Of a DNA stretch of 64,000 nt, positions 1 through 19,041 are shown in pieces. Every line of letters starts with the position of its first letter. The first letter of the stretch is position 1. The notes beneath the pieces were generated by a model. It searched no databases. It saw only the letters and a program-made list of their open reading frames with translations, and had not been told where the DNA came from. The translations under genes and the position numbers were made by a program. This DNA comes from Mycolicibacterium sp. HK-90 (GTDB lineage Bacteria > Actinomycetota > Actinomycetes > Mycobacteriales > Mycobacteriaceae): positions 5,642,001 through 5,706,000 of the forward strand of contig NZ_CP129613.1 of the NCBI RefSeq assembly GCF_030486405.1, written 5' to 3'.

Positions 1-3000
1 TGAGTCCGATCCACCGGCACGTACACCCCGCCGGCCTTGAGCACCGCCCACCACGCGGTCACCAACTCGACAGACCGGCTGATCGCCACCCCGACGGCAC
101 GCTCGGGACCCACACCCGCGCCGATCAACACCCGTGCCAGCTGGTTGGAGGCCTCATCGAGCTCCCGATAGGTGAACTCCCGCAGGTCATCCACCACCGC
201 CAAGGCGTCTGGATCCGCGGCCACCGCGGCTGCCAACAGCTCCGGAGCCAGCCCCACCCGTGCATCGATGTTGGCACCAGACCACTTGTGCAACACCAGA
301 TTGCGTTCGTCGCCGCCGAGCAGGCCGACCTCGCCCACCACCACCGACGAATCCGCCACCACGGCATCGACCACGCGGCCGAACCATCCCACCAGTCGCT
401 CGATGGTGGATCGGTCGAACAGGTCCGTGGCGTATGTCAGCACGCCGGCGGCCATCGGGGCGCCCGAACGTTCGTCGGGGACCTCCCTGATGTCCACGTC
501 GAGATCGAACTTTGCGGTCCGGGTGACCATCGACATCGGCTCGATGCCGGCGCCCTCCAACGCCACCTCAGGACGCACGTTGTTCTGGAAGACCAGGGCG
601 ACCTGGAACAGCGGATGATGCGATGTGGACCGCGTCGGGTTCAGTTGCTCCACCAGCAACTCGAAGGGCACGTCCTGGTTGGTGTAGCCATCCAGCGCTT
701 TCTGACGCACCTGATCGAGCACATCGCTGAACCTCTGCTGGGAGTTCAACCCGACCCGCAGGACCCACGTGTTGACGAAGAAGCCGACCAGCTCCTGCAG
801 GGCCTGGTCGTTGCGTCCCGCGATCGGTGTTCCCAGCGCGATGTCCTCACCGACGCCGGCCCGGTGCAGCACGACGGACATGACAGCCTGCAGCACCATC
901 GACGTGGTGACGTTGTGTTCTGCGGCAACGGCTTTGATTCCGGCCCAGGCTTGTGAATCGATGCGCAGGTCGACCCCGTCGCCCCGGTAACTGGGCACCG
1001 GCGGGCGCGGCCGGTCGGTAGGCAACGACACCACCTCGGGCAGACCCGCCAGCTCTTTGCGCCAATAGGACAGCTGCTCGGCGATTCGGCTGCCCGGATC
1101 GTCAAGGTCTCCCAGATGCTCACGCTGCCACACCGTGTAATCGGCGTACTGGACGGGCAACGGTGACCACGCTGGAACCTGACCGGCGCAGCGGGCTGCG
1201 TAGGCGATCCCGACGTCCTTGACCATGGGTGCCATGGACCAGCCGTCGAAGGCGATGTGGTGCAAGACGATTCCGAGGACATACCGTTCGGGACCCACCG
1301 CATAGATCTGCGCCCGGATCGGGATCTCGGTAGCCAGGTCAAACCGGTATCCCACCAACCCGACCAACTCGCTGATGACCGCGTCTTCTTGGTCCGCTGC
1401 CACCTGCACTACCGCCGGGCCGCCGCGCCGCCACAGCCCCGGCTCTGCCGGAAGCACCTTCTGCGAGGGCACACCGTCGACGTCAGGGAACACCGTGCGC
1501 AGCGATTCGTGCCGGTCGATGACGTCGTCGAGGGCCGACTCGAGCGCTTCGACATCGAGTACGCCGTTGATCCGGAACGCGATCGGCATGTTGTACGTCG
1601 CGACCCCGCCCTCGAATCGGTTGAGGAACCACAGCCGCTGTTGCGCATACGACAGTGGGATCACGGCGGGTCGCTGCTGCGGGACCAGCGGCCGGCGTTC
1701 GCTCGAGCCTGAGACGATGCGTGAGGCGAGTTGGGCGACGGCCGGCGCGTCGAACAAGGTACGCACGCCCATGTCGACGTCGAGGTGGCTGTTGACCGCG
1801 GCGAGCAACCGCATCGCCGACAGGGAGTCGCCGCCGAGGTCGAAGAAGGAATCGTCGACCCCGACCCGGGGCAGGTTCAGGACTTGGGCATAGATGCCGG
1901 CCAGGATCTCCTCGGTCGCCGTGCTCGGGGCCCGGTAATGATCGGTGTCGACGTATTCCGGTTCCGGCAACGCCCGTTTGTCCAGCTTGCCGTTCACCGT
2001 CAACGGCAAGGAGTCCAGGACCACGACAGCGGTCGGCACCATGTAGGCCGGTAACCGCTGCGAGAGCTGTGCGCGCACCACCGCGGGATCGGCTGACCCG
2101 GTGATGTAGCCGACCAGCCGCTTGTCACCGGGACGGTCCTCACGGGCGATCACCACGGCTTGCTGCACGTCATCGAGATCGGCCAGCGCCGTTTGGATTT
2201 CGCCGAGTTCGATACGGTAGCCGCGGATCTTGACCTGCTCATCGGCACGCCCGGCATACCGCAACTGCCCATCTGGACCCCAAGAGACCAAATCCCCGGT
2301 CCGATACATCCGGGCACCCGGCGCGCCGAACGGGCACGCCACGAACCGGGAAGCGCTCAGGCCCGCACGCCGCACATAGCCGACACCCACACCGCGACCG
2401 GCGACATACAACTCACCCACCACGCCCGAAGGCACCGGACGCAAGGCCCGATCCAACACAAACAGTGCCGCTCCGGGCACCGGCACACCTACCGGGACGA
2501 CCCCCGAACCGGGCTGCAACGGAGCGCTGATCGTGGCGTACACCGTCGTCTCGGTGGGACCGTACCCGTTGATCATCACCCGTCCCGGCGCCCAGCGGTC
2601 CACCACATCGGCTGGGCACGCCTCGGCAGCCACCATCAAGGCCGGCACCGACTTCAGCTTGTCAGGCGACAGCATTCCGACCGCAGAAGGTGTCTGGCTC
2701 AACACCGTCACACCCTCAGCGACCACCAACGCCTGCAATTCCTGCGGCGAACGCGTCACGGCCTCGGGCACGACCACCAGGCGTCCACCGTGCAGCAGAG
2801 CACCCCAGATCTCCCACACCGAATAGTCGAACGCCAACGACGAACACGCCGCCCACACCTGCTGCGGGCCCAACTCGATCCCGACATCCATGGCGTCGAA
2901 CAGCCGCGTCACGTTCTGATGCGTGACCGCAACACCTTTGGGCACACCCGTGGTCCCCGACGTGTAGATGACGTGCGCAATGTCATCCGGAGCCGGAACC

Positions 3001-6000
3001 GGCAATGCGCTCGAGGACTGCGCATCGATACGCGCGTCGTCGACCTCGACCACTGGGACACCGGATCCGTCCAACCGCTCGGCCAGCCCAGCCATGGTGA
3101 CCGCCGCCACCGGTTGCGCATCTGCCAGCATGAACTGCACCCGAGCGTCCGGATGCGCCGGATCAATCGGCAGATACGCCGCACCGGACTTCAGCACACC
3201 CAAGATCGCCACCACAGCCTGCATTGAGCGCTCGAGCATCAGCGCAACGTATTCGCCGGGTCCAGCGCCATATTCGGACAACAAGCGCGCCAACCGATTC
3301 GACGCCTCATCCAATTCCCGATACGACAACGACCGACCTTCAAACGACACCGCCACCGCATCCGCAGCGCGCTGCACCTGAGCCGCGAACAACGCCGGAA
3401 TCGACGACTCCACCACCGACCCCGTCAACACCGCCCGATGACCAACCTCATCCAGCCGCGCACGATCAGCAGCATCAAGAACATCCACCGACGACAACCG
3501 CTGACCCGGCTCGGAAACAAACGCCGTCAACACCCGCTGCAACCGCTCGACCAGGGTTCGAATGCTTGTCGCATCGAAGACGTCCGTGCGGAACTCGACC
3601 ACGCCGCCGATGCCGGCCGGGGCGCCGGCCTCGCTGAAACGTTCAGCGAGGGAGAACACCAAATCCATACGAGCGGTTCGGGTCTCCGCATCGAGCGGCG
3701 TGGCCTGGATATCGCCCAGATCCAAACTGGACGCCTGTTCCGCGGCGAAGTTCTGCCAGGAAACCATGACCTGCACCAGGGGGTGATGGGTGAGGCTCCG
3801 GGCCGGGTTGAGCCGTTCCACCAACAGCTCGAAGGGGACATCCTGATGCTCGAGCGCCGCCAGACCACGCTGCCGTACCTGGCCCAGCAGATCGGCAACT
3901 GTCGGGTCTCCGGCCAGGTCGAGCCGCAGAACCAGGGTGTTGACAAAGAAACCCACCAGCTCATCAAGGCCGGGGTCACTCCGTCCGGCGGTCGCGATTC
4001 CCACTGCCACGTCGGAACTCGCGCTCAGCTGGGCGAGCAGCGCCGCCAGCGCGGCCTGGACGACCATGAAACTGGTTGTGTTGTACTCCCGGGCGATGCG
4101 GGCCACCTGCTGCTGCAACTCGGCCGGCCAGTCCACCACCACGCTGGAACCCTGGTAGTCGGCCACCACCGGATACGGCCGATCTGTGGGCAGCTCCAGA
4201 ACTTCGGGCAGACCCGCCAACGCCTGCTCCCAGTAGGCCAGCTGCGTGGCGAGCACACTGTCGGGATCGGACTCGGATCCCAACCAACCCTGTTGCCACA
4301 ACGTGTAATCGGCGTACTGCACCGGAAGTGGCGACCAATCGGGAACGTGGCCTGCGCAGCGACTCGCGTACGCCGAACCCAGATCAGCCACGAACGGGGT
4401 TATCGACCAACCATCGGCAGCGATATGGTGAACCACCGCCACCAGCACATGGTGATCCGGGGCGACCCGGAACAGGGTTGCCCGCAAGGGGATTTCCTGA
4501 GTGAGGTCAAAGGGGCGCCGCCCGACAGCTCCGGCTGCTTCCTCCAACTGCTCGGTCGACCATCCGGTGGCGTCGACAACTCGCCAACCCAGTTCTGCTT
4601 GCGCGGCCGGCACCACCAATTGCCGGGGAACGCCGTCGACGGCCCCGAACATGGTGCGCAGAGTCTCGTGCCGACTCACGACATCGGCCAAGGACTGTCC
4701 GAGCGCGTCGGCGTCCAAGCTGCCGTCCAACCGCAGCGCGACCGCCATGTTGTAGATCGACGACGGTCCCTGCAGCTGCTCCAGGAACCACAATCGCTGT
4801 TGCGCGTAGGACAGTGGGATGACCGGAGAACGCGGCTGCGGCGTCAAGCGCTGACGTCCACCCGAGCCGGCCCTGATATGCGGTGCCAGAAGCGCAATCG
4901 TGGGTGAGTCGAACAAGGTACGGACGCCGAGATCGGCATCCAGGGCCGTGTTGACTGCGGCGATCAGTCGCATGGCCGACAGTGAATCGCCGCCGAGGTC
5001 GAAGAAAGAATCGTCGACCCCGACGCGTTCCATGCCCAACACCTGGGCGTAGATGCCGGCCAAGATCTCCTCGGTCGCCGTGCTCGGCGCACGGTAATGA
5101 TCGGTGTCGACGTATTCCGGCGCCGGCAACGCGCGCTTGTCCAGCTTGCCGTTCACCGTCAACGGCAGCGCCTCGATGACCACCACCGCTGCGGGCACCA
5201 TGTAGGCGGGCAACCGCTCGGCCAGTGCCGCCCGGACGTCAGCGGGTTCCACATTGCCGGTGATGTAGCCGACCAGCCGCTTGTCGCCGGGATGGTCCTC
5301 ACGGACGATCACCACCGCCTGCAGCACACCATCCAAAGACGCCAGAGCTGTTTGGATTTCCCCCAACTCGATGCGGTAACCACGGACCTTGACCTGATCA
5401 TCAGCACGCCCGGCATACCGCAACTGCCCATCCGGACCCCACGACACCAAATCCCCGGTCCGATACATGCGTATTCCGGGTGCACCCGCACTCCCGAACG
5501 GACAGGCAACGAACCGCGACGCGCTCAGGCCCGCGCGGCGCACATACCCCACACCCACGCCGCGGCCGGCCACGTACAACTCACCCACCACACCCGGAGG
5601 CACCGGGTGCAACCAGCGGTCCAGGACGAACAGCGCCGCACCTGGTACGGGTAGACCGATAGGCACTGGCCCCACCCCGGGCTGCATGGGTGCGCTGATC
5701 GTCGCGTACACCGTGGTCTCGGTCGGACCGTAGCCATTGATCATCACCCGGCCCGGCGCCCACCGATCCACCACATCCGCCGGGCACGGCTCAGCGGCCA
5801 CCATCAGCGCGGCCGATTCCAGGCCCTCTGAGGCGAGCATCCCTATCGCCGAAGGAGTTTGGCTCAGAACCGTGACGTGCTCATTGACCAACAGGGTATG
5901 CAGGTCTTGGGATGAACGAGTGGTCTGCTCTGGCACCACGACCAGGCGCCCACCAAACAACAAGGCGCCCCAGATCTCCCACACCGAATAATCGAACGCC

Positions 6001-9000
6001 AACGACGAGCATTGCGACCACACCTGCCGCGGGCCCAACTCGATACCCACATCCATACCGTCGAACAACCGCGTCACGTTCTGATGCGTGACGGCAACAC
6101 CTTTCGGCTCCCCTGTCGTCCCCGACGTATAGATGATGTGCGCCACATCATCCGGAGCCGGACCCGCGGCCGGCGCCGAACTGGACTGAGATCCAATCCG
6201 GGCATCCTCGATGTCGATCACCGAGACACCCCAGCCGCCGAGCCGCTCGCCCAGCTCAGCCGTCGTGATCACCGCCATCGGCCCGGCATCGCCGAGCATG
6301 AACTCAACCCGAGCATCCGGATGCGCCGGATCGATCGGCAGATACGCCGCACCCGACTTCAACACACCCAGGATCGCGACAATCGCATCGGCCGAACGGC
6401 CCATCATGAGGCCAACACACCCACCCGGGCCCGCCCCCTCGGAAACCAGCAGTTGCGCCAACCGATTCGACGCCTCGTCCAACTCCCGATACGACCACGA
6501 ACGGCCATCGAAAGTCAGTGCCGTCGCACCGGGCGCACGCTGTACCTGCGCTGCGAACAACGCCGGAATCGACGATTCCGCCACCGGCCGCGTCAACACG
6601 GCCCGATGACCCACCTCGTCCAGCCGCGCACAGTCGGCGGCATCAAGCAGCTCCACCGACGACAACCGCCGAGCCGGATCGGCCGTCATCTCGGCCAGCA
6701 TCCGCTGCAACCGCTCGATCAAAGTCTCGATAGTGGTCGGGTCGAACACGTCGGTACGAAATTCGACTGACCCCTCGATGCCGGTCGGCGTGCCCGCATC
6801 GTTGAAACGTTCGGCCAGTGAGAACACCAGATCCATACGGGCGGTCTGGGTTTCGGCCTCCAACCGGGTGACGCCCACGTCGCCCAACGTCAGCGCGGCG
6901 GCGGGATCGCTGTGCTGCCAGGGCAGGTTCTGCCACGTCAGCATGACCTGGACGAGCGGGTGATGGGTCAGGCTGCGGGTTGGATTCAGCCGATCGACCA
7001 GAACCTCGAACGGCACATCCTGATGCTCGAACGCCGCCAGACTACGCCGCCGCACCTGACCCAACAGGTCGGCAACCGTGGGATCTCCGGCCAGGTCAAC
7101 CCGGAGCACCAACGTGTTGACGAAGAAGCCCACCAGATCGTCCAGCGCGGGCTCACCGCGGCCGGCCGACGCGATGCCCACAGCGACATCAGTGCTTGCG
7201 CTCAGCTGGGCCATCAATGCGGCCAGTGCGGCCTGGACCACCATGAAGCTCGTCGCGCCGTGCTCGCGCGCCACCCGCGCGATCTGTTGCTGCAACTCGG
7301 CAGGCCAATCCACCGTCACACTGGAGCCCCGGTAGTCGGCCACTGGCGGGTACGGCCGATCCGTCGGCAGCTCCAACCGATCGGGCAGATCGGCCAGCTC
7401 GCCCTCCCAATAATCCAGCTGACCGGTGATCACGCTGTTGGGGTCAGATACGGATCCCAACCACTCCTGTTGCCACAACGTGTAATCCGCGTACTGCACG
7501 GGCAGGGGCGCCCAGTCCGGCGCCTGCCCCGCACACCGACTGGCGTACGCAGTCGCCAGATCGATCACCAGCGGTGTGACCGACCAGCCGTCGGCGGCGA
7601 TGTGGTGGACGACGGCGGCCAGCACATGTTCGTGTTCATCGATCCGGAAAAGCGTTGCCTTGATCGGGATCTCAGTCGTGAGGTCAAAACTGTGACGCGC
7701 GGTCTCACTGATTGCCTCGTCGAGGCGGCCTGCGGGCCATCCGCCGGCGTCGACGATTCGCCATCCCAGGTCAGCGTGCTCGGGGTCGAGGACCACCTGC
7801 TGAGGTACACCGGCGATCGACCTGAAGACGGTGCGGAGGCTCTCCTGCCGGCCCACGACGTCTGCCAGCGCGGCACCCAAGGCTTCTTCATCCAGGTGAC
7901 CACTGAGCCGTAACGCCACCGCCATGTTGTAGATCGGTGACGGCCCCTGCAGTTGCTCCAAGAACCACAGCCGTTGCTGGGCATAGGACAACGGGATCAT
8001 CGCCGGGCGATGCCGCGTGGTGAGAGGCGGTCGTGCCACGCCGTCCTGATGCCGGTCAAGATAATCGGCCATGCCACCGACCGTGGGTGCGTCGAACAGG
8101 TAGCGAACGGGTACATCCCTGCCAAGCGCGGACTGTAGCCGCGCGCAGACCCGGATGGCGATCAGCGAATCGCCGCCAAGGACGAAGAAATCGTCCTCGA
8201 GCCCCGCCCTGCCGAGTCCCAGGACCTCGGTGAACACCTCCGCGACGATCTTTTCCATATCGGTCTGAGGTGCGCGGAACGAGGTGGCGACAAAGGTGGG
8301 TTCAGGCAGGGCCTTGCGATCGATCTTGCCCGAGGAAGTCAGAGGGAATTCGTCGAGCACCACGATCTGCGACGGCACCATGTATTCGGGCAGCCGCTCG
8401 GCCAGCCATTGACGGACCGCGGTGACCTTCGAGTTGGTGTGTGGATCGTTGGCGTACCCGCCGCGCTGGCGGGAGTCGGTGGCGGGCTGGTAGAGATCGG
8501 TGAGCGCGGGCACGCCCGACCCATCGGAGGCGGCGATGAAGACGGCGTCCAATGTGCCGGGGTGTGCGCCCCAGGTGACCGCGACGTGGTATCCGGCGGC
8601 CTCTCCCAGGCGGTACACCATTTCGGGGGTGACGACATCCTCGGCTGCGGCGGCGTCGGCGTGGACGAGGGCCTCGACGATGGGAAGTCCGGCGCTCAAG
8701 GCTTCTTCGGTCACCACGTCGGCGATCACCCCGGCGCGGGGAATGCCACTGACCCGCACCGTGGAGGGGTGCCGAGTCGTCAACTCGGCATGCAGTCCGC
8801 TCAGGCCGGCACATTCAGTCCACGCCCAGACCGGGGCGCTCGCCAACGAGCACACCTGAGTGGGCGCCCTGTGGACGATCACGTCGTAGCGGTACCGGCT
8901 GAGTTCGTTGTCGGCTTCACCACGTTTGACCTGGATGTCGATACCTCCCACCGATGGATGGTCGGCCGCCCAGGTGGTGAAGAACTCTGGGGCAAGCAGT

Positions 9001-12000
9001 AACTCGGGCTCGCCCAGCATCGCCCGGTGTACCCGCTGGCGGATCTCGTCGGTATCGGTCCCGTTCCGGCTGCGCGCCAGTGCGATACCGGTCTGGAACG
9101 CACCCTGCAGGCTGTGGTTGCGGACGTCGCCGACGAACAGCGTCCCACCTGGCGCCAGCAGATCCATTGCCTTGTCGATGACCTCCGCCAGGTACCCAGC
9201 GCTCGGGAAGTACTGGACCACCGAGTTGATCACCACCATGTCGAACAGGCTTTGCGGCAGGTCCTCGGTGACGTGCGCCGGCCGGGTCAGCAGATGGACC
9301 CGATCTCCCCACGGTTGGCCGGCCACGGCCGCCTGAAGCTTCTGGATGGTCGGTGCGGAAAAGTCTGTGCCCCAGTACTGCACACACCTCGGCGCGAGCT
9401 GCGACAGCAACAAACCCGATCCAACACCGAGTTCGAGTACCCGCTGCGGCCGCAGTGCGAGGATCCGCTCCACGGTGGCCGAACGCCATTCCTCCATCTC
9501 CTGCAGGGGGATCGGATCGTCGGTGTAGCTGCTGTTCCAACCCCGGAAATCGTTGCCGAATTCGACGGAGTCAAGGTCGGCGTCGTAGAGCTCGTCGTAG
9601 ATGCCCTGCCACTGGTCGACGACGTCGGCGTCGTAGTCGGCGGTGCTGTTCTGTTCGAGGGCGATGTAGCCGACCAGATGATCGACACCGGTGCTCCCGC
9701 GACGCACAGCCGCGGCCGCACGCATGACCTGCGGGCAGGTCAGCAGGGTGTTCTCGATCTCGCCCAGTTCCAGACGCTGCCCGCGAAGTTTGATCTGGGC
9801 GTCGGCGCGACCCAGGTATTCCAGCTGGCCCGTCTCGGTCCAGCGCACCAGGTCGCCGGTGCGATACATACGCGTTCCCGGAGCGCCAAAAGGATTGGCC
9901 ACAAACCGATCCGCGGTCAGGTCGGGTCGACCCACGTAGCCCCGGCCCACTGCAGGGCCGGCGAGGTACAGCTCAGCCACGACTCCGACCGGAGCGGGAT
10001 GGAGCCGCGCATCGAGCACGAACGCGTGGGTGCCCGGAACCGGTGCGCCGATCCGCACCGGCTCCCCGGCGGTCAGTGCACTCCAGGTCGCCCAGATGGT
10101 CACCTCGGTCGGTCCGTAGGCATTGAACATCCGACGCGGTGCCTTGTTTCCCGCCTCGCGTGCGGATCCAGCCCACGCGGCAACCAACTCCGCCGGACAC
10201 GCCTCACCACCGGTGACCAATGTGTCCAACCCGTCGATCTGAGCCGGGTCCAGCGTGGCCAGCACGGTTGGGGTGATCAGCGCCGCGTCCACGCGGTGAC
10301 CCGCGAGCACCTCGGCCAATGCCGCGCCGGCATAAGAATCCGGCGGTGCCACAACCAGCGCCGCCCTCGCCGCGACTGCCCACAACCACTCGAATATCGA
10401 GGCATCGAATGTCGGTGCAGCGACCATCAGCACTCGGGAGCGCGGAGCCACACCGAGCAGATCGCGGTGCGCGGCCGCCACCCCCAGCACACCGGCGTGG
10501 CTGATCGCCACACCCTTCGGCGTCCCCGTGGAACCCGACGTGAAGATCACGTACGCCGCATTGTCGACACTCAAGGATGTCAGTCGGTCCGTATCCGTCA
10601 CGGGATCCGCGCTGTGCTCGGACAGATCGACCACATCGAGCGGAATGACGAGGTGGCTGCCGGTCCCCTCGAGCCCGCCCATGCCGCGCGTGAGCACACA
10701 AACCGCATCGGCAGTGTCCAACACCGTAGCGACGCGCTCGGCCGGGTAGCCCGGATCGACGGGCACGTACACCCCACCTGCCTTGAGCACCGCCCACCAG
10801 GCGACCACGAGCTCCGCGCAGCGACCCATCGCCACCCCGACGGCACGCTCCGGGCCCACCCCTGCCTCGATCAAGGCCCGGGCCAACCGATTGGAGATCT
10901 CATCCAGTTCCCGGTACGACAGCTCGCGCGGCCCATCCACCACTGCAACGGCGTCCGGGTCAGCGGCAACCGCCGCGGCCAGCAACTCCGGTGCCAGTCC
11001 CACCGGGGCGCCCGCCTCTGCGCCAGACCACTTGTGCAGCACCAGATCCTGCTCATCGTGAGCCAGTAGGCCAAGATCACCTACGACGACCGACGAATCG
11101 GCCACCACGGTCTCGACCACGCGGCCGAACCAACCCACCAACCGCTCGACGCTGGATCGGTCGTAGAGGTCAGTGGAGTAGGCCACCGTGCCTGCCGCCA
11201 TCAGCGCCCCGCGGTCTTCGGCCGTACCTGCCTTCAGATCGAACAACGCACTCGCGTCTCCGCTGGGGATCTCCCGCAGGTCGAATTCGAGATCGAACCG
11301 AGCGGTACGGATGTCGGCGGTGTCCGGCTCGACGTCGAGCCCATCCAGCTGGATTTCGGGGCGCACATTGTTCTGGAATGCCAACGCCACCTGGAACATC
11401 GGATGGTGAGACGTGGACCGGGTCGGATTGAGCCGCTCCACCAAGAGCTCGAAGGGCACGTCCTGATTGGCATAGGCGTCCAGTGCCTTCTGCCGCACCT
11501 GTGCCAACACTTCGCTGAACCGCAGCGCCGGATCCACGCCCACCCGTAGCACCCAGGTGTTGACGAAGAAGCCGACCAGTTCATCGAGCGCTTGGTCCGT
11601 ACGCCCGGCGATCGGAGTTCCCAGTGCGATGTCCTCGCCGACTCCGGCTCGGTGCAGGGCCACCGCCATCGCTGCCTGCAACACCATCGACACCGTTGCG
11701 TTGTGGGCCGTGGCCACGGCCCTGATCCCCGCCCAGGTGTCGGACTCGATGCGCAGATCAACCGCATCGCCACGGTAACTGGGCACCGGCGGACGTGGCC
11801 GGTCGGTGGGCAGCGATACCACCTCGGGAAGGTCGGCCAATTCCCGTCGCCAGTAGGCCAACTGGCTCGCGAGCACGCTGTCGGGATCGGACTCGGATCC
11901 CAGCCAATCCTGTTGCCACAACGTGTAATCGGCGTACTGCACCGGCAGCGGCGACCAGTCGGGGGCCTGGCCGAGGGTGCGCGACCGGTACGCCTCGCTC

Positions 12001-15000
12001 ACGTCCCGGGCCATGGGCGCCATGGACCAGCCGTCGAAGGCGATGTGGTGCAACACGATTCCGAGGACGTACCGCTCGGGACCCACCGAATAGATCTGAG
12101 CCCGGATCGGGATCTCGCCGGCCAGGTCGAACCGGTATCCAGCCAGCGCGACCAACTCGCCAACCAGATCGTCTTCTGCGACCTGCACCAGGGCCGGGCC
12201 GCCGCGCCGCCACAGCCCCCGCCGCGCGGGAAGCACCTTCTGCGAGGGCACACCGTCGACGTCGCGGAACACCGTACGCAGCGATTCGTGGCGATCGATC
12301 ACATCGTCGAGCGCCGCATCGAGTGCGCCCAGGTCCAGTGCGCCGTTGATCCGGAACGCGATCGGCATGTTGTACGTCGCCGCACCGTCCTCGAATCGAT
12401 TGAGGAACCACATCCGTTGTTGCGCGTAGGACAACGGAATCAGGCGAGGGCGTTCGCCGGCCACCAAGGGCGCACGCCGGTCCGAATCCTCGCCGACATG
12501 CGGTGCCAACTGCGCCACCGTCGGCGCGTCGAACAACGTACGTACCGCCAGTCCGGCATCCAAACCCGTGTTGACTGCGGCGACGACCCGCATCGCGAGA
12601 ATGCTGTCGCCGCCGAGGTCGAAGAAAGAATCGTCGACCCCGACGCGTTCCATGCCCAACACCTGGGCGTAGATGCCGGCCAAGATCTCCTCGGTCGCCG
12701 TGCTCGGCGCACGGTAATGATCGGTGTCGACGTATTCCGGCGCCGGCAACGCGCGCTTGTCCAGCTTGCCGTTCACCGTCAACGGCAGCGCCTCGATGAC
12801 CACCACCGCTGCGGGCACCATGTAGGCGGGCAACCGCTCGGCCAGTGCCGCCCGGACGTCAGCGGGTTCCACATTGCCGGTGATGTAGCCGACCAGCCGC
12901 TTGTCGCCGGGATGGTCCTCACGGACGATCACCACCGCCTGCAGCACACCATCCAAAGACGCCAGAGCTGTTTGGATTTCCCCCAACTCGATGCGGTAAC
13001 CACGGACCTTGACCTGATCATCAGCACGCCCGGCATACCGCAACTGCCCATCCGGACCCCACGACACCAAATCCCCGGTCCGATACATGCGTATTCCGGG
13101 TGCACCCGCACTCCCGAACGGGCACGCCACAAACCGCGACCCGGTCAAACCCGACCGGTTCACATAGCCGACTCCGACACCGCGGCCGGCCACATACAAC
13201 TCACCCACCACGCCCGCAGGCACCGGACGCAACGCCCGATCCAGCACAAACAATGCTGCACCCGGCACCGGCACACCAATCGGCACCACACCCGAACCCG
13301 CCTGCATGGGCTTGCTGATCGTCGCGTACACCGTGGTCTCGGTCGGACCGTAGCCATTGATCATCACCCGGCCCGGCGCCCACCGATCCACCACATCCGC
13401 CGGACACGCCTCAGCCGCCACCATCAACGCCGACACCGAACCCAACCGTTCGGGATCCAACACCCCCACCGCCGACGGCGTCTGACTCAACACCGTCACA
13501 CCCTCGCCAACAACCAACGCTTCCAAATCCCGCGGCGAACGCGTCGTCTGCTCGGGCACGACCACCAGGCGCCCACCAAACAACAGGGCGCCCCAGATCT
13601 CCCACACCGAATAATCGAACGCCAACGACGAACATTGAGCCCACACCTGCGCCGGACCCAACTCGAAACCCACATCCATACCGTCGAACAACCGCGTCAC
13701 GTTCTGATGCGTGACGGCAACACCTTTCGGCACCCCTGTCGTCCCCGACGTGTAAATAATGTGCGCCACATCATCAGGCGATGGACCCGGCAACGCACCA
13801 CACGACTGCGCATCAATCCGCGGATCATCAACATCGATCACCGGCACACCACAACCGCGCACGCGCTCAGCCAACGCAGCCGTGGTCACCACCGCCACCG
13901 GCCCAGCATCACCGAGAATGAACTCGACCCGAGCATCCGGAACTGCCGGATCAATCGGCAGATACGCCGCACCCGACTTCAACACACCCAGGATCGCGAC
14001 AACCGCATCAGCCGAACGACCCATCAACAAACCGACACACGCACCCGGCCCAGCACCCTCGGAAACCAACAACTGCGCCAACCGATTCGACGCCTCATCC
14101 AACTCCCGATACGACAACGACCGACCCTCAAAAGTCACCGCCACCGCATCAGGAACACACTCCACCTGAACCGCGAACAACCCCGGAACCGAAGACTCCA
14201 CCACCGGCCCCGCCAAGACCGCCCGATGACCCACCTCGTCCAGCCGCTCCCGATCAACCGCATCGAGCACATCCACCGAGGACAACCGCCGAGCCGGATC
14301 AGAAACAAACGCCCCCAACACCCGCTGCAACCGCGACGCCAGATCCTCGACGTCGAAACGGGAGAACGGTTGGGCCGTGCCCATCGTGCTGAGAAACAGG
14401 TCGTCCCCGGCGCTGGAGAAGACGAGGCCGAAGCCACCCACGACGCCGGCATTGGTCAACGACGCCGAGGCCTGCGCACCGCCGAAATCCAACGTGAAGG
14501 TGGACGGCAGGAAATTGACGCTCACCCGATTCGCCATCTGGCCCGCCGCTCGCGGGTTGACCTTGCGCTCTAGCGAGAGGACCGGAAACCGCTGATGCTT
14601 CAAGGCTTCCTGCATCCGGCGCTCGACATCGTCGATGAACTCGGAGATCGACGTTGCGGGTGAAGCCGTCAACACGAGCGGCACCACCCCGGCCACCATG
14701 CCGGGCAGCGTCCGCGATTCGGGGCTTACGCGACGGCTGACCGGGAAGTCGAGCACAACATCTTCGCCGTCAGCGCACCACCCGTGCACGAGCAAGGCAC
14801 ACGCCGCGGTGATTATCGATGAACGAGGAACATTCTTCGACCTGGCGAGTATGTCGACCTGGCGTAGTACCTCCGAGTCCAATTGAACTGGGGCAGAAGG
14901 CCAATGCACCTCCTGGTTGTCGACAGATTCGGTCGGACCAGAATCCGGGCCGACTTCCGGTGGAAGGTTCTCGTTCCAGTAGGCCTCGTCATCGAGATAC

Positions 15001-15566
15001 TCGGCCGACGCTTCGTACTTCGACTCGTTGTCGATCAGATCAGCCAGGGAGCCGAAAATCGACGGGGGTACGGGCTCGCCTGACGATACCGCCGAATACA
15101 CCGATGCCAGGCGTGAGCCGACCAGTGCGATGCCGGTCCCGTCGAGCACGATGTGGTGACAGCCCGCGATCAAGAAATGTTCATCGTCCTGTGTCTGGAA
15201 CAGTGCGAACCTGAACAGCGGCCCCGTGAACGACATCGGCATGCGTTGGATCGACGACGCCATGTCGCGCGCTTCCTGCACCGGGTCGATCGCACCGCGC
15301 AGGTCGTGGAAGGCAAGCTCCACTTCGGGGTCGTCGACCGCCTTCTGGTAGACCTGCCCGTCCACCTCGAAGAAGGTGGCCCTGAGCGGTTCGGCCTCGC
15401 GCACCACCCGGCGGATCGCCCACTCAAGTGCGTCGCGGTCGAGCGCGCCCGCGATCCTCACGAATAGACCGAGTAACCACTCGGTGCCGGATTCAGCCAC
15501 GTCGTGCGCAAGCCAAATATCGAGCTGCGCGCGTGTTACCGGCAGCGACTGTTCATCAAGCTGCAT
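1..15566 (-). CDS. Giant multimodular non-ribosomal peptide synthetase, 3' end outside window
   Basis: The frame is open from an ATG at 15566 (GGGAGAG five bases upstream) to the window edge, so about 5188 codons are visible. Approximate residue positions: C1 1-440, A1 450-940, T1 Ser988; C2 1040-1480 (HHIAFDG), A2 from 1490 interrupted by a methyltransferase at 1960-2400, A10 motif GKIDRKALP near 2411, T2 Ser2467; C3 2520, A3 2990-3475, T3 Ser3528; C4 3580, A4 4050-4530, T4 Ser4581; C5 4634, A5 from 5080, cut. All C domains keep HHxxxDG and all carriers keep GGDS. C1 starts at the N terminus and differs from the others, as in lipopeptide starter C domains. I see no epimerase, reductase or thioesterase. 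Reading pocket residues against GrsA gives D-Y-W-S-M-A-G-V-Y for A1, A3 and A4, and D-A-F-L-V-G-A-I-W for A2. Inferred product: an N-acylated peptide of at least five residues with one N-methyl group. It is translated just after mbtH. The product is unknown to me. Confidence 0.95.
4987..5501. repeat. 515-bp perfect direct repeat, copy in NRPS module 3
   Basis: I compared this block line by line with 12607-13121 and found it identical at all 515 positions, exactly 7620 bp away. It encodes the end of A3 (motifs A8-A10) and the start of the carrier domain T3. A second identical block, 5694-5783 against 13314-13403 (90 bp), lies at the same offset. Synonymous sites are also identical, so the copies are very recent or were homogenised by gene conversion. 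An assembly artefact is possible. Confidence 0.95.
8400..9690 (-). other. N-methyltransferase domain embedded in adenylation domain 2
   Basis: Between core motif A8 ([20 protein letters not shown], about 9760-9820) and A10 (GKIDRKALP, 8309-8335) of module 2 there are about 440 extra residues. They contain a class I SAM-binding motif [12 protein letters not shown] (about 9406-9441) followed by an acidic WGTDFS strand. This is the usual site of NRPS N-methyltransferase domains. The amino acid loaded by module 2 is therefore predicted to be N-methylated. A C-methyl or O-methyl role is less likely but cannot be excluded from sequence alone. Confidence 0.85.
12607..13121. repeat. 515-bp perfect direct repeat, copy in NRPS module 1
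   Basis: This is the partner of 4987-5501. It encodes the C-terminal part of A1 and the start of T1. The flanking sequence diverges abruptly on both sides: at 12606 and below (carrier core after GGDS), and at 13122 and above (between A7 and A8). The tract therefore has sharp edges, as expected for conversion or module-swap endpoints. Confidence 0.95.
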
Positions 15567-15611
15567 CGAACTCTCCCACTGCGAGATGTGCTGCACGCCC
15601 CAGGGGGCCGG

Positions 15612-15842
15612 TTAGCTGTCGGCCCCTTGGGCTTGGGCCAATCTGTCGCGCAGGCTCTTCGGTCGGATATCCGGCCAGTTCTGTTCGATGTAGTCCAGGC
15701 ACGCCGCGCGGTCCGCTTCGCCGAAGACGACCTTCCAGCCGGCGGGAATGTCGGCGAAGGTCGGCCACAAGCTGTGCTGTTCCTCGTCGTTGATCAGGAC
15801 GAGGAATCGGCCATTGTCATCGTCGAACGGGTTGATACTCAT
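15612..15842 (-). CDS. MbtH-like protein
   Basis: A 76-aa protein of the small MbtH family, which binds adenylation domains and is often needed for their solubility and activity. It shows the family landmarks: an N-terminal [16 protein letters not shown], the GW pair, CLDYIEQNW and DIRP, close to the usual length of about 70 residues. I place the start at the ATG at 15842 because GGGGGAGG lies six bases upstream. An in-frame ATG at 15860 lacks such a site. It is the first gene of the unit, with 45 bases between its TAA and the NRPS ATG, so the two are almost certainly co-transcribed. Its specific role is to activate the neighbouring A domains (inference from family and context). Confidence 0.93.
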
Positions 15843-16956: not shown

Positions 16957-19041
16957 TCAGCTGACGCTGGCCAACACCAGCGGCAACACCTCGGGCACGC
17001 CGGCGCCGCGAAGCAGGCGGGCGGCCATGGTCAGCGTCCAACCGGTGTCGGTCATGTCGTCGATGAGCAGCACCGGCCCGTCGACGTCGATGCGCGGAGG
17101 CTCCCACGCGCCGTCCAGGGCAGCCACCCGATACGCCGAATTCGCCGCTGTGACAGGGCGATGCTGCGGGGTGTAGGCCACGGTGCCGAGATTCGTCAAA
17201 CGGCCGATCCGCGCGAGCTGTTGCACCATCGAAGAGATCAACAGCGGGTGGGTCAGGGAATCCAGCCCCACCACCGCTACCGGCCGGCGATCCCAGTCCC
17301 ACGCCTTGAGCACCTCGACAGCCGCGACCACCACGTCGTCGGGCACCTCGCCGTCCGGCTCGGCCAGCAGTCGCCGCAGCCGCGCTCCCCAACCCAGGTC
17401 GGTGAGTCTGCCGATCGCCCGGCCCGGCGACGCGCCGTCGGCGATCCGGCCGGACAGTTCCACCCCGAGGGCAGCCAGTCCGGACGGCCACTGCTTACGT
17501 GGGGCCACCAGCACCCCGGGCCGCGACAATCGTTGCGCGGTATCGGCCATGATGTCCTGCGCCACCACGGCCGGATACCGCCTGCCGGTGCAGTTGTCAC
17601 ACCGGCCGCACTGCGCGCCCGGTTCCAGCTCGGGATCGTCGAGTTGACCCCGCAAGAACGCCATCCGGCAGCTGTCCGTGGCCTGATAGTCCAGCATGGC
17701 CTGCTGCTCCCGGCGCCGCGCCTCGTCCAACGCCCGGTAGCGGGCCTCGTCATAACTCCACGGCACACCGGTACCGATCCAGCCGCCCTTGACGCGGCGG
17801 ACCGCACCGTCGACGTCGAGCACCTTGAGCACCATCTCCAGGCGGGACCGGTTGAGATCAACCAGTGGCTCCAGCGCCTGGGTGGATTGGGCCCGGCCGG
17901 CCTCCAGCGCACCGATCACATTGCGCACCATGGCTTCCGAGGGGAATGCCACCGACGCGAAGTACCGCCACACATCCTGGTCCTCCGTGCCGGGCAGCAG
18001 GATCACCTCGGCACTCTCGGTCGCGCGCCCCGCACGACCCACCTGCTGGTAGTAGGCGATCGGGGAGGAAGGCGCGCCCAGGTGTACGACGAAGCCCAGG
18101 TCAGGTTTGTCGAAGCCCATCCCCAGCGCCGACGTCGCCACCAGGGCCTTAACCCGGTTGTCGAGCAGGTCGGCTTCCAGTTGCTCACGTTCGGTGTTGT
18201 CCGTGGAACCGGTGTAGGCGGCCACCTTGTGGCCGCGTTCGGCCAACAGGGCTGCCACGTCGTGGGCTTGGGCCACCGTGAGGGTGTAGATGATGCCGGA
18301 GCCGGGCAGGGAATCCAGGTGTGCCGCGATCCAGGCGGCCCGCTGCGCGGGTGTGCCCACCTGCACCACCGACAGCCGCAACGACTCCCGGTCCAGGCCG
18401 CCACGCAACACCAGAGTGTCCGACCCGCCGACACCCAATTGGGCGGCCACGTCACCGACCACCCGATCATTGGCCGTCGCGGTGGTAGCGAGAACCGGTA
18501 TCTCCGAACCCAATTCGCCGATCAAGGTACGGATACGGCGGTAGTCGGGCCGAAAGTCGTGACCCCAGTCGGACACGCAGTGCGCCTCGTCGACCACCAC
18601 CAGACCGGCATCGGCGGCCAGGGCGGGCAGCACGTTGTCGCGGAAGTCGGGATTGTTCAGACGCTCGGGGCTGACCAGGAGGACGTCGAGGTCGCCCTCG
18701 GCGACCTGCCGGTGGATCCCGTCCCACTCCGTGACATTGCCGGAGTTGATCGTGGCCGCCCGCACCCCGGCCCGGTCGGCGGCGGCCACCTGGTTGCGCA
18801 TCAACGCCAGTAGCGGGGAGACGATGACCGTCGGCCCCCGGCCGGACGCGCGCAAGAGCTTGGCTGCGATGAAGTAGACCGCCGATTTGCCCCACCCCGT
18901 GCGCTGCACGACGAGGGCGCGGCGCCGCTGAACCACCAGGGCCTCGATGGCCGCCCACTGGTCATCCCGGAGCACCGCCGCGGGCCCGGCCAGTTGTTCG
19001 AGGATCGACTGGGCCTGCTCGCGGGTGGTCATGATCCCCAT
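16957..19041 (-). CDS. RecQ-family ATP-dependent DNA helicase with C-terminal PRTase-like motif
   Basis: A 694-aa 3'-5' superfamily 2 helicase, presumably acting in DNA repair. The Walker A motif is GWGKSA (about residue 50), the DEAH box is DEAHCVSDWGHDF with the aromatic-rich RecQ loop, then TATAND. The helicase C domain carries TSALGMGFDKPD and QQVGRAGRA. A four-cysteine zinc site follows (DSCRMAF, then CGRCDNC) near residue 440. The last 40 residues contain VLLIDDMTDTGWTL, which fits a phosphoribosyltransferase PRPP loop. It is therefore longer and differently ended than classical RecQ, and no HRDC domain is evident. The first ATG is used; a second at 19032 is possible. It stands alone between the NRPS region and hsaF. 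Confidence 0.9.
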   Translation of the reverse strand: MGIMTTREQAQSILEQLAGPAAVLRDDQWAAIEALVVQRRRALVVQRTGWGKSAVYFIAAKLLRASGRGPTVIVSPLLALMRNQVAAADRAGVRAATINSGNVTEWDGIHRQVAEGDLDVLLVSPERLNNPDFRDNVLPALAADAGLVVVDEAHCVSDWGHDFRPDYRRIRTLIGELGSEIPVLATTATANDRVVGDVAAQLGVGGSDTLVLRGGLDRESLRLSVVQVGTPAQRAAWIAAHLDSLPGSGIIYTLTVAQAHDVAALLAERGHKVAAYTGSTDNTEREQLEADLLDNRVKALVATSALGMGFDKPDLGFVVHLGAPSSPIAYYQQVGRAGRATESAEVILLPGTEDQDVWRYFASVAFPSEAMVRNVIGALEAGRAQSTQALEPLVDLNRSRLEMVLKVLDVDGAVRRVKGGWIGTGVPWSYDEARYRALDEARRREQQAMLDYQATDSCRMAFLRGQLDDPELEPGAQCGRCDNCTGRRYPAVVAQDIMADTAQRLSRPGVLVAPRKQWPSGLAALGVELSGRIADGASPGRAIGRLTDLGWGARLRRLLAEPDGEVPDDVVVAAVEVLKAWDWDRRPVAVVGLDSLTHPLLISSMVQQLARIGRLTNLGTVAYTPQHRPVTAANSAYRVAALDGAWEPPRIDVDGPVLLIDDMTDTGWTLTMAARLLRGAGVPEVLPLVLASVS

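Follow-up and report, generated by a model that had tools for sequence, protein, structure and literature searches.

What does the giant nonribosomal peptide synthetase (NRPS) encoded close to sterol-catabolism genes in Mycolicibacterium sp. HK-90 make? We analysed a 64,000-nucleotide stretch of the single-contig, 6.49-Mb genome (the window; G000:C1:5642001-5706000) and read 95 kb around the synthetase, here called N1, whose minus-strand open frame covers window positions 3-15596. An original prediction from the window had described at least five modules of condensation (C), adenylation (A) and thiolation (T) domains in one polypeptide, one of them with an N-methyltransferase (MT), in the order C-A-T, C-A(MT)-T, C-A-T, C-A-T, C-A, and had proposed an unknown N-methylated lipopeptide. 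Judged from domains, adenylation codes and neighbouring genes, N1 together with a tail synthetase, N2a, very probably forms a nine-module, all-L line for a lipononapeptide of the fortuitine type. An N-methylated lipopeptide is well supported; given the match to fortuitine, 'unknown' is probably wrong, and the product is probably a compound already described.

A nine-module line on two polypeptides

Pfam matches reproduce the predicted module order, to which reading beyond the left edge of the window adds a second MT domain, in module 5: the full string of N1 is C-A-T, C-A-MT-T, C-A-T, C-A-T, C-A-MT-T, C (window features in Table 1). At genome positions 5637947-5657596 it occupies a 6,549-aa frame; the ATG at window position 15566 is the likely start, relatives having similar N-terminal starts, and the protein would then have about 6,540 aa. 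'At least five modules' was right as far as it went, N1 contributing five of nine modules plus an unpaired C domain with which it ends; this terminal C domain and the MT and T domains of module 5 lie left of the window. The terminating thioesterase (TE) domain is found at the end of N2a (genome 5625687-5637950, 4,087 aa), whose gene overlaps that of N1 by 4 bases. N2a and a second tail, N2b (genome 5603727-5616026, 4,099 aa), each read A-T, C-A-T, C-A-T, C-A-T-TE by Pfam and motif order, and N1 with N2a makes nine modules (five A domains plus four), of which only modules 2 and 5 have an MT domain. Across N1, N2a and N2b every one of the 13 T domains carries LGGDS, and HHxxxDG is found in all six C domains of N1, in 3/3 of N2b and in 2/3 of N2a.

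The N-terminal C domain of N1 (C1), predicted to be divergent and lipo-initiating, reaches 173.7 bits with PF00668, where the five other C domains of N1 reach 295-325. Among solved structures it is closest to 7c1k/7c1h/7c1p and CDA synthetase I (4jn3), of which we take 7c1k and 4jn3 to be lipo-initiating domains; the closest to the internal C3 domain are 5u89, PCP-C didomains and Txo2. In a 30-row tree, whose LCL and DCL labels were assigned by domain position and whose mycobactin-type rows are long-branched and unsure in placement, C1 groups (100/100) not with LCL domains but with three starter C domains from other mycobacterial synthetases: those of the GL8P-like synthetase of the same genome, of M. 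avium P0193 and of M. immunogenum P0185. In N1, N2a and N2b together, the 11 C domains other than the starter form one group with C domains that follow modules without an epimerase (E) domain. This group is separate from domains of another cluster in the same genome, both its E domains and the C domains that come after them. The divergent starter is borne out by these results, as is the predicted absence of epimerases: none was detected in N1, N2a or N2b by motif order or tree, and in motif order an A domain comes after each condensation-type domain except the terminal C. Because E domains are absent and the non-starter C domains group as LCL, the line appears to be all-L.

Nine-letter adenylation codes were extracted by motif, at positions presumed to correspond to those of GrsA, with question marks for motif failures. 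N1 reads DYWSMAGVY, DAFLVGAIW, DYWSMAGVY, DYWSMAGVY and DAFLAGLIW, positions 1, 3 and 4 being identical and 2 and 5 alike; N2a reads DYWSVGMVH, DYWSVGMVH, DVWSVAAVY and DVWNVAGYT. Two standards serve for calibration. A second NRPS pair in the genome reads DFWSVGMVH-DVWSVAAVY-DVWTVVAMC-DFWTVGVMW-DAESLAAIC-DFWTLVAVY on one polypeptide and DFWSVGMVH-DFWSVGMVH on the other, with E-type matches after modules 1, 3, 6 and 8, and matches in order the T-A-F-I-Y-L-T-T given for GL8P of M. abscessus in the covered part of PMC11978893. For M. avium P0193 the codes give Phe-[MT]-Ile-Phe-Ala, and an E-type motif follows module 1; this reading matches the residue order of L5P in the covered text of PMC8103206; we infer that P0193 may be the L5P synthetase. 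The two standards agree, their Ala and Ile codes being the same and their Phe codes near-identical; the Ala code, DVWSVAAVY, recurs unchanged in module 3 of N2a, and the Thr code of N2a is one letter away from the Thr code DFWSVGMVH of the GL8P-like pair. Read in this way, the codes of the nine modules appear to fit Val-MeLeu-Val-Val-MeLeu-Thr-Thr-Ala-X.

Fortuitine and its rivals

Fortuitine reportedly has the sequence acyl-Val-MeLeu-Val-Val-MeLeu-Thr(Ac)-Thr(Ac)-Ala-Pro-OMe. N1 and N2a share with it nine positions, N-methylation at 2 and 5 only, Thr-Thr-Ala at 6-8 and an all-L chain, and the lipo-initiating type of the starter C domain matches its N-terminal fatty acyl group; at the Val (1, 3, 4) and Leu (2, 5) positions the pattern of equality is right. 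Adjacent and co-occurring genes with predicted ICMT/PEMT-like and WS/DGAT-like roles could account for the methyl ester and the O-acetylthreonines. It is because module count, N-methyl positions, Thr-Thr-Ala order, all-L reading and tailoring genes all match that we favour this assignment. Fortuitine itself has been known as a mycobacterial compound since Barber, Jolles, Vilkas and Lederer (1965) described "an acylnonapeptide methyl ester", the title as cited in the covered part of PMC3509699. No prior gene assignment for it was found in the open-licence literature searched, and one may exist elsewhere.

In the proposed route, the starter C domain would N-acylate residue 1 with a long fatty acid, and modules 1-5 would add Val, N-methyl-Leu, Val, Val and N-methyl-Leu. 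The terminal C domain of N1 would pass the acyl-pentapeptide to the opening A-T unit of N2a, and this tail would extend it by Thr, Thr, Ala and one further residue, which is Pro in fortuitine. Release of the acid would fall to the TE domain, the ICMT-like enzyme would convert it to the C-terminal methyl ester, and the WS/DGAT-like acyltransferases would O-acetylate the threonines. Candidates for these last steps, the acyltransferases AT1 and AT2 and the ICMT/PEMT-like enzyme, are encoded beside N2a; the enzyme matches PF04140 above cut-off and PDB entry 4a2n at E 9e-7. The locus holds six acyltransferases in all, the other five 63-84% identical to AT1, together with an ICMT fragment, an ornithine cyclodeaminase-like gene and a KAS III-like gene.

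The starter C domain was searched for in 396 genomes of the genus, HK-90 included. Matches at E <= 1e-60 occur in 245 of these genomes; identity and frame length show that many evidently belong to other NRPSs. In 12 genomes besides HK-90 the identity exceeds 72%. We read 13 loci including that of HK-90, then 10 more; eight of the 12 close genomes are among the 13, those with short frames (G336, G299, G049, G141) having been left out. A first tail reading Thr-Thr-Ala-X is present in 7/13 loci (G000, which is HK-90, and G231, G239, G124, G348, G273 and G327), and beside all seven stand orthologues of AT1 and of the ICMT-like gene (ICMT1), 78-81% and 83-94% identical outside HK-90. Three loci with different tails (G298, G252, G280) have neither orthologue; G128, G177 and G281, cut at this region, do not enter the count. 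Among the further 10 loci none combines an HK-90-type head with a Thr-Thr-Ala-X tail.

The clearest repetition of the pattern is in G348, whose codes are DFWSMAGVY-DAFLVGAIW-DFWSMAGVY-DFWSMAGVY-DAFLVGAIW-Thr-Thr-Ala-DVWNLVGYT, with positions 1, 3 and 4 identical and 2 and 5 identical (A-B-A-A-B-Thr-Thr-Ala-X). Its in-silico hsp65 fragments (231/116/79/15 and 145/123/58/52/40/23) fit the row for M. fortuitum type 1 in the covered part of the PMC3511182 table, and it alone of 8 genomes has this pattern pair; G124 has a HaeIII fragment of 146 but a different BstEII pattern. For HK-90 the fragments agree with the rows of M. senegalense type 1 or M. fortuitum type 2 in the covered part of that table (PMC3511182). 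Its 16S sequence, compared over the same 8 genomes minus G273, G298 and G124, is identical to that of G239, differs at 1 position from G327 and at 11-12 from the two G348 copies.

Several observations weigh against fortuitine as the product. The genome is that of a close relative, its identity as M. fortuitum being rejected by hsp65 (a fragment of 139, not 145) and by 16S, and the identity of G348 itself rests on a fragment table that lists some species only. The Val and Leu codes, assigned by their fit to fortuitine, lack independent calibration; the module 9 code, DVWNVAGYT, was obtained by motif across a loop with a one-residue deletion and is, to our knowledge, not a canonical Pro code; and the C9 domain of N2a reads HHIAGDA instead of HHxxxDG. 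The full head pattern is kept in 5/7 of the Thr-Thr-Ala-X loci, module 4 being changed in G239 and G273. As to tailoring, the methyltransferase scores higher as PEMT (50.6 bits) than as ICMT (38.5) and reaches 69 against an NCBIfam cut-off of 160. All three acyltransferases tested match WS/DGAT in NCBIfam at E 2e-6 to 5e-9, far below cut-off, one of six does so in Pfam, also below cut-off, and a profile of the six sequences retrieves no solved structure from PDB at E 0.01. Nor are such genes exclusive to the Thr-Thr-Ala-X tail: an ICMT-like gene of 50-52% identity persists in G298, G252 and G280, and acyltransferases 57-64% identical occur in G012 and G339, whose residue strings are different.

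Some of these points would also suit a related but different linear N-methylated lipononapeptide, with, for example, Ile or Abu in place of Val, or another residue 9. The non-canonical residue 9 code leans that way, as does module 5 of HK-90, which reads DAFLAGLIW, unlike its own module 2 and unlike DAFLVGAIW at module 5 of G348, and the wider family carries other residue strings on the same scaffold; G348, however, which is M. fortuitum by its hsp65 fragments, has nearly the same string along with orthologues of AT1, ICMT and AT6, and we consider such a different product unlikely. A glycopeptidolipid or mycobactin-type system, towards which the starter C domain, the MbtH-like gene and kinship with mycobacterial lipopeptide synthetases might point, is scarcely conceivable: N1 and N2a have nine modules, two MT domains, no E domain and a TE at the end rather than a reductase, and the prediction was right to set both systems aside. 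The glycopeptidolipid system Mps1/Mps2 is a tetrapeptide-amino-alcohol line with E domains and a terminal reductase. The four E domains of a GL8P-type octapeptide line are likewise absent here, and a separate locus elsewhere in the genome fits that type; a third NRPS group, at 4.13-4.15 Mb, is taken as mycobactin from its layout.

Of the known lipopeptides besides fortuitine, L5P of M. avium subsp. paratuberculosis shares with the predicted product N-acylation, N-methylation, a linear chain and a C-terminal methyl ester, and its likely synthetase shares the Ala code of N2a; it differs in having five residues, D-Phe at position 1 and a single polypeptide with TE (PMC8103206, covered part). The GL8P system of M. 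abscessus (MAB_4690c/4691c) resembles the line described here in its head and tail synthetases on two polypeptides and its MbtH, and differs in its eight residues, four E domains and glycosylation; the covered text of PMC11978893 reports neither N-methylation nor a second tail.

One head and two tails

What is new about the locus is its layout of one head with two tails; the second tail, its most unusual feature, lies outside the window, beyond the reach of the prediction. N2b is intact, missing none of the motifs of its A, C, T and TE domains; its codes are DYWSVGMVH three times, then DVWNLAAYA. Like N2a it has no C domain of its own in front and opens at the same broken C-A linker: the opening sequence of the tails, (V/M)TADLSRRLSSMDFLDEDEH or one very similar, is mid-linker, and heads terminate in the first half of the linker, as RLRKVLMAMTAE. 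The exceptions are G252, where the frame call of the second tail begins upstream of the linker point, and G348, where the second tail has a short extension; the tail of the GL8P-like pair opens differently, with VTAEANRRLLSMDLDDDDD. In all of the further 10 loci the head ends in C and the tail begins with A.

Of the loci with enough flank, 8/10, HK-90 included, have a second tail frame that begins with an A domain (G000, G231, G239, G124, G348, G273, G327 and G252), and G298 and G280 have one tail. Second-tail codes read Thr-Thr-Thr-X in G000 and G327 and Thr-Ala-Thr-Val-like in G348; those of G231, G239 and G273 begin with a Val-like code and have an MT in the third module, and G124 gives Thr-Ala followed by two unread codes. 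G252 has its two tails in direct tandem (782892-796622), and the frame called for the second overlaps the end of the first.

From this arrangement we think it rather likely that the line is forked, with two tails competing for one acyl-pentapeptide. The five-module head would end in an unpaired C domain at the linker break, and either four-module tail could accept the chain; N2b would take the acyl-pentapeptide from N1 to a second nonapeptide ending Thr-Thr-Thr-X. The two lipononapeptides of a single strain would then share a constant lipid half and differ in their C-terminal halves, and tail swaps at this point would set species apart. It is also possible, if somewhat doubtful, that N2b is silent, decaying or served by another partner, in which case there would be one product and no fork. 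A remnant of MbtH in front of N2b (genome 5616265-5616375, 37 aa, 51% identity, 26.2 bits against a cut-off of 27) favours that alternative, as do the single tails of 2/10 loci and the one tail seen in each of the further 10, of which about 40 kb apiece was covered, such that a more distant second tail is possible. The intact motifs of N2b, its opening linker shared with N2a and the second tail in 8/10 loci argue for the fork instead, and the genome's other multidomain condensation matches belong to two other clusters, one with its own tail. Elsewhere, G124 and G273 have a full-length MbtH match in front of the second tail; at E 1e-8 none was detected there in G231, G239, G348, G327 or G252. 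A remnant of a second head between N2a and N2b was sought in HK-90 by tblastn and rejected, matches being at chance level (E 1.9 or more).

In the anabaenopeptin synthetase, two alternative starter modules are said to share the rest of one NRPS line; those alternatives start the chain, and N2a and N2b would end it. The C-A linker is the exchange-unit boundary used by engineers. A real fork would be a natural example of NRPS line recombination at that linker, with tails of different specificity that can be compared across species. If the fortuitine assignment is true, it provides the genes for a lipopeptide structure dating from 1965, in rapidly growing mycobacteria that include opportunists, and calibrated A-domain codes for mycobacterial lipopeptides.

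Neighbourhood and other observations

Table 1. Positions in the window of the N1 gene, its domains and modules, and the genes upstream
Feature	Window position	Strand	Basis or remark
N1 head synthetase, 5' part	3..15566	-	gene extends 4054 bases left of window
Starter C domain (C1), lipo-initiating type, HHIVLDG motif	14241..15554	-	Pfam, structure matches, tree
Module 1 (C-A-T), code DYWSMAGVY, Val by fit to fortuitine	12492..15596	-	Pfam and code motif
Module 2 (C-A-MT-T), code DAFLVGAIW, N-methyl-Leu by fit	8052..12491	-	Pfam and code motif
Module 2 N-methyltransferase domain PF08242, SAM motif VLELGVGSG	9138..9437	-	Pfam
Module 3 (C-A-T), code DYWSMAGVY, Val by fit	4872..8051	-	Pfam and code motif
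Module 4 (C-A-T), code DYWSMAGVY, Val by fit	1707..4871	-	Pfam and code motif
Module 5 start (C-A), code DAFLAGLIW, N-methyl-Leu by fit	3..1706	-	Pfam and code motif
Gene for an MbtH-like protein (76 aa), immediately upstream of N1	15612..15842	-	
RecQ-like DEAD-box helicase gene, locus border	16957..19041	-	neighbour in relatives too

The MbtH-like gene is where the prediction had placed it. Of the sterol-catabolism neighbourhood that the prediction also saw, an HMGL/DmpG-type aldolase gene is present, separated from the MbtH-like gene by the RecQ-like helicase gene, which is not thought to belong to the pathway. Because this helicase intervenes and the tailoring genes lie on the opposite side of the NRPS genes, the cholesterol neighbourhood is probably incidental, without functional meaning. 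A sterol-related function for the locus was rejected, its borders being the RecQ-like helicase on the sterol side and HtpG, FadD, PKS and MmpL genes on the other.

No Rfam family reaches its gathering threshold in the window. A megablast search for plasmid likeness with 3.4 kb upstream of N1 returned 3 records, matching the helicase gene alone, and a viral-contig scan with a spurious overlapping plus-strand frame found no relative.

The second NRPS pair lies at genome 3194803-3227516 (8,184 and 2,720 aa), where the eight codes, taken with the places of the E domains, spell the GL8P octapeptide T-A-F-I-Y-L-T-T; its last domain match is C-like and no TE is evident, no Pfam search for TE having been made. 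According to the covered part of PMC11978893, conservation of GL8P is limited to the M. abscessus complex and a small number of its close relatives.

Near N2b, a second ICMT-like copy is split over two frames (genome 5617221-5617822), and the ornithine cyclodeaminase-like gene (genome 5601271-5602329) might supply the ninth residue of the N2b product. This gene occurs together with AT4, AT5, AT2 and the KAS III-like gene in only 2/13 loci, G000 and G327, those with the Thr-Thr-Thr-X tail. Adjoining the locus at genome 5577915-5595222 and largely kept in relatives is a block of two MmpL-like genes (by eye), a FadD-type AMP-ligase, a PKS and a methyltransferase, which presumably resembles a trehalose polyphleate-type locus.

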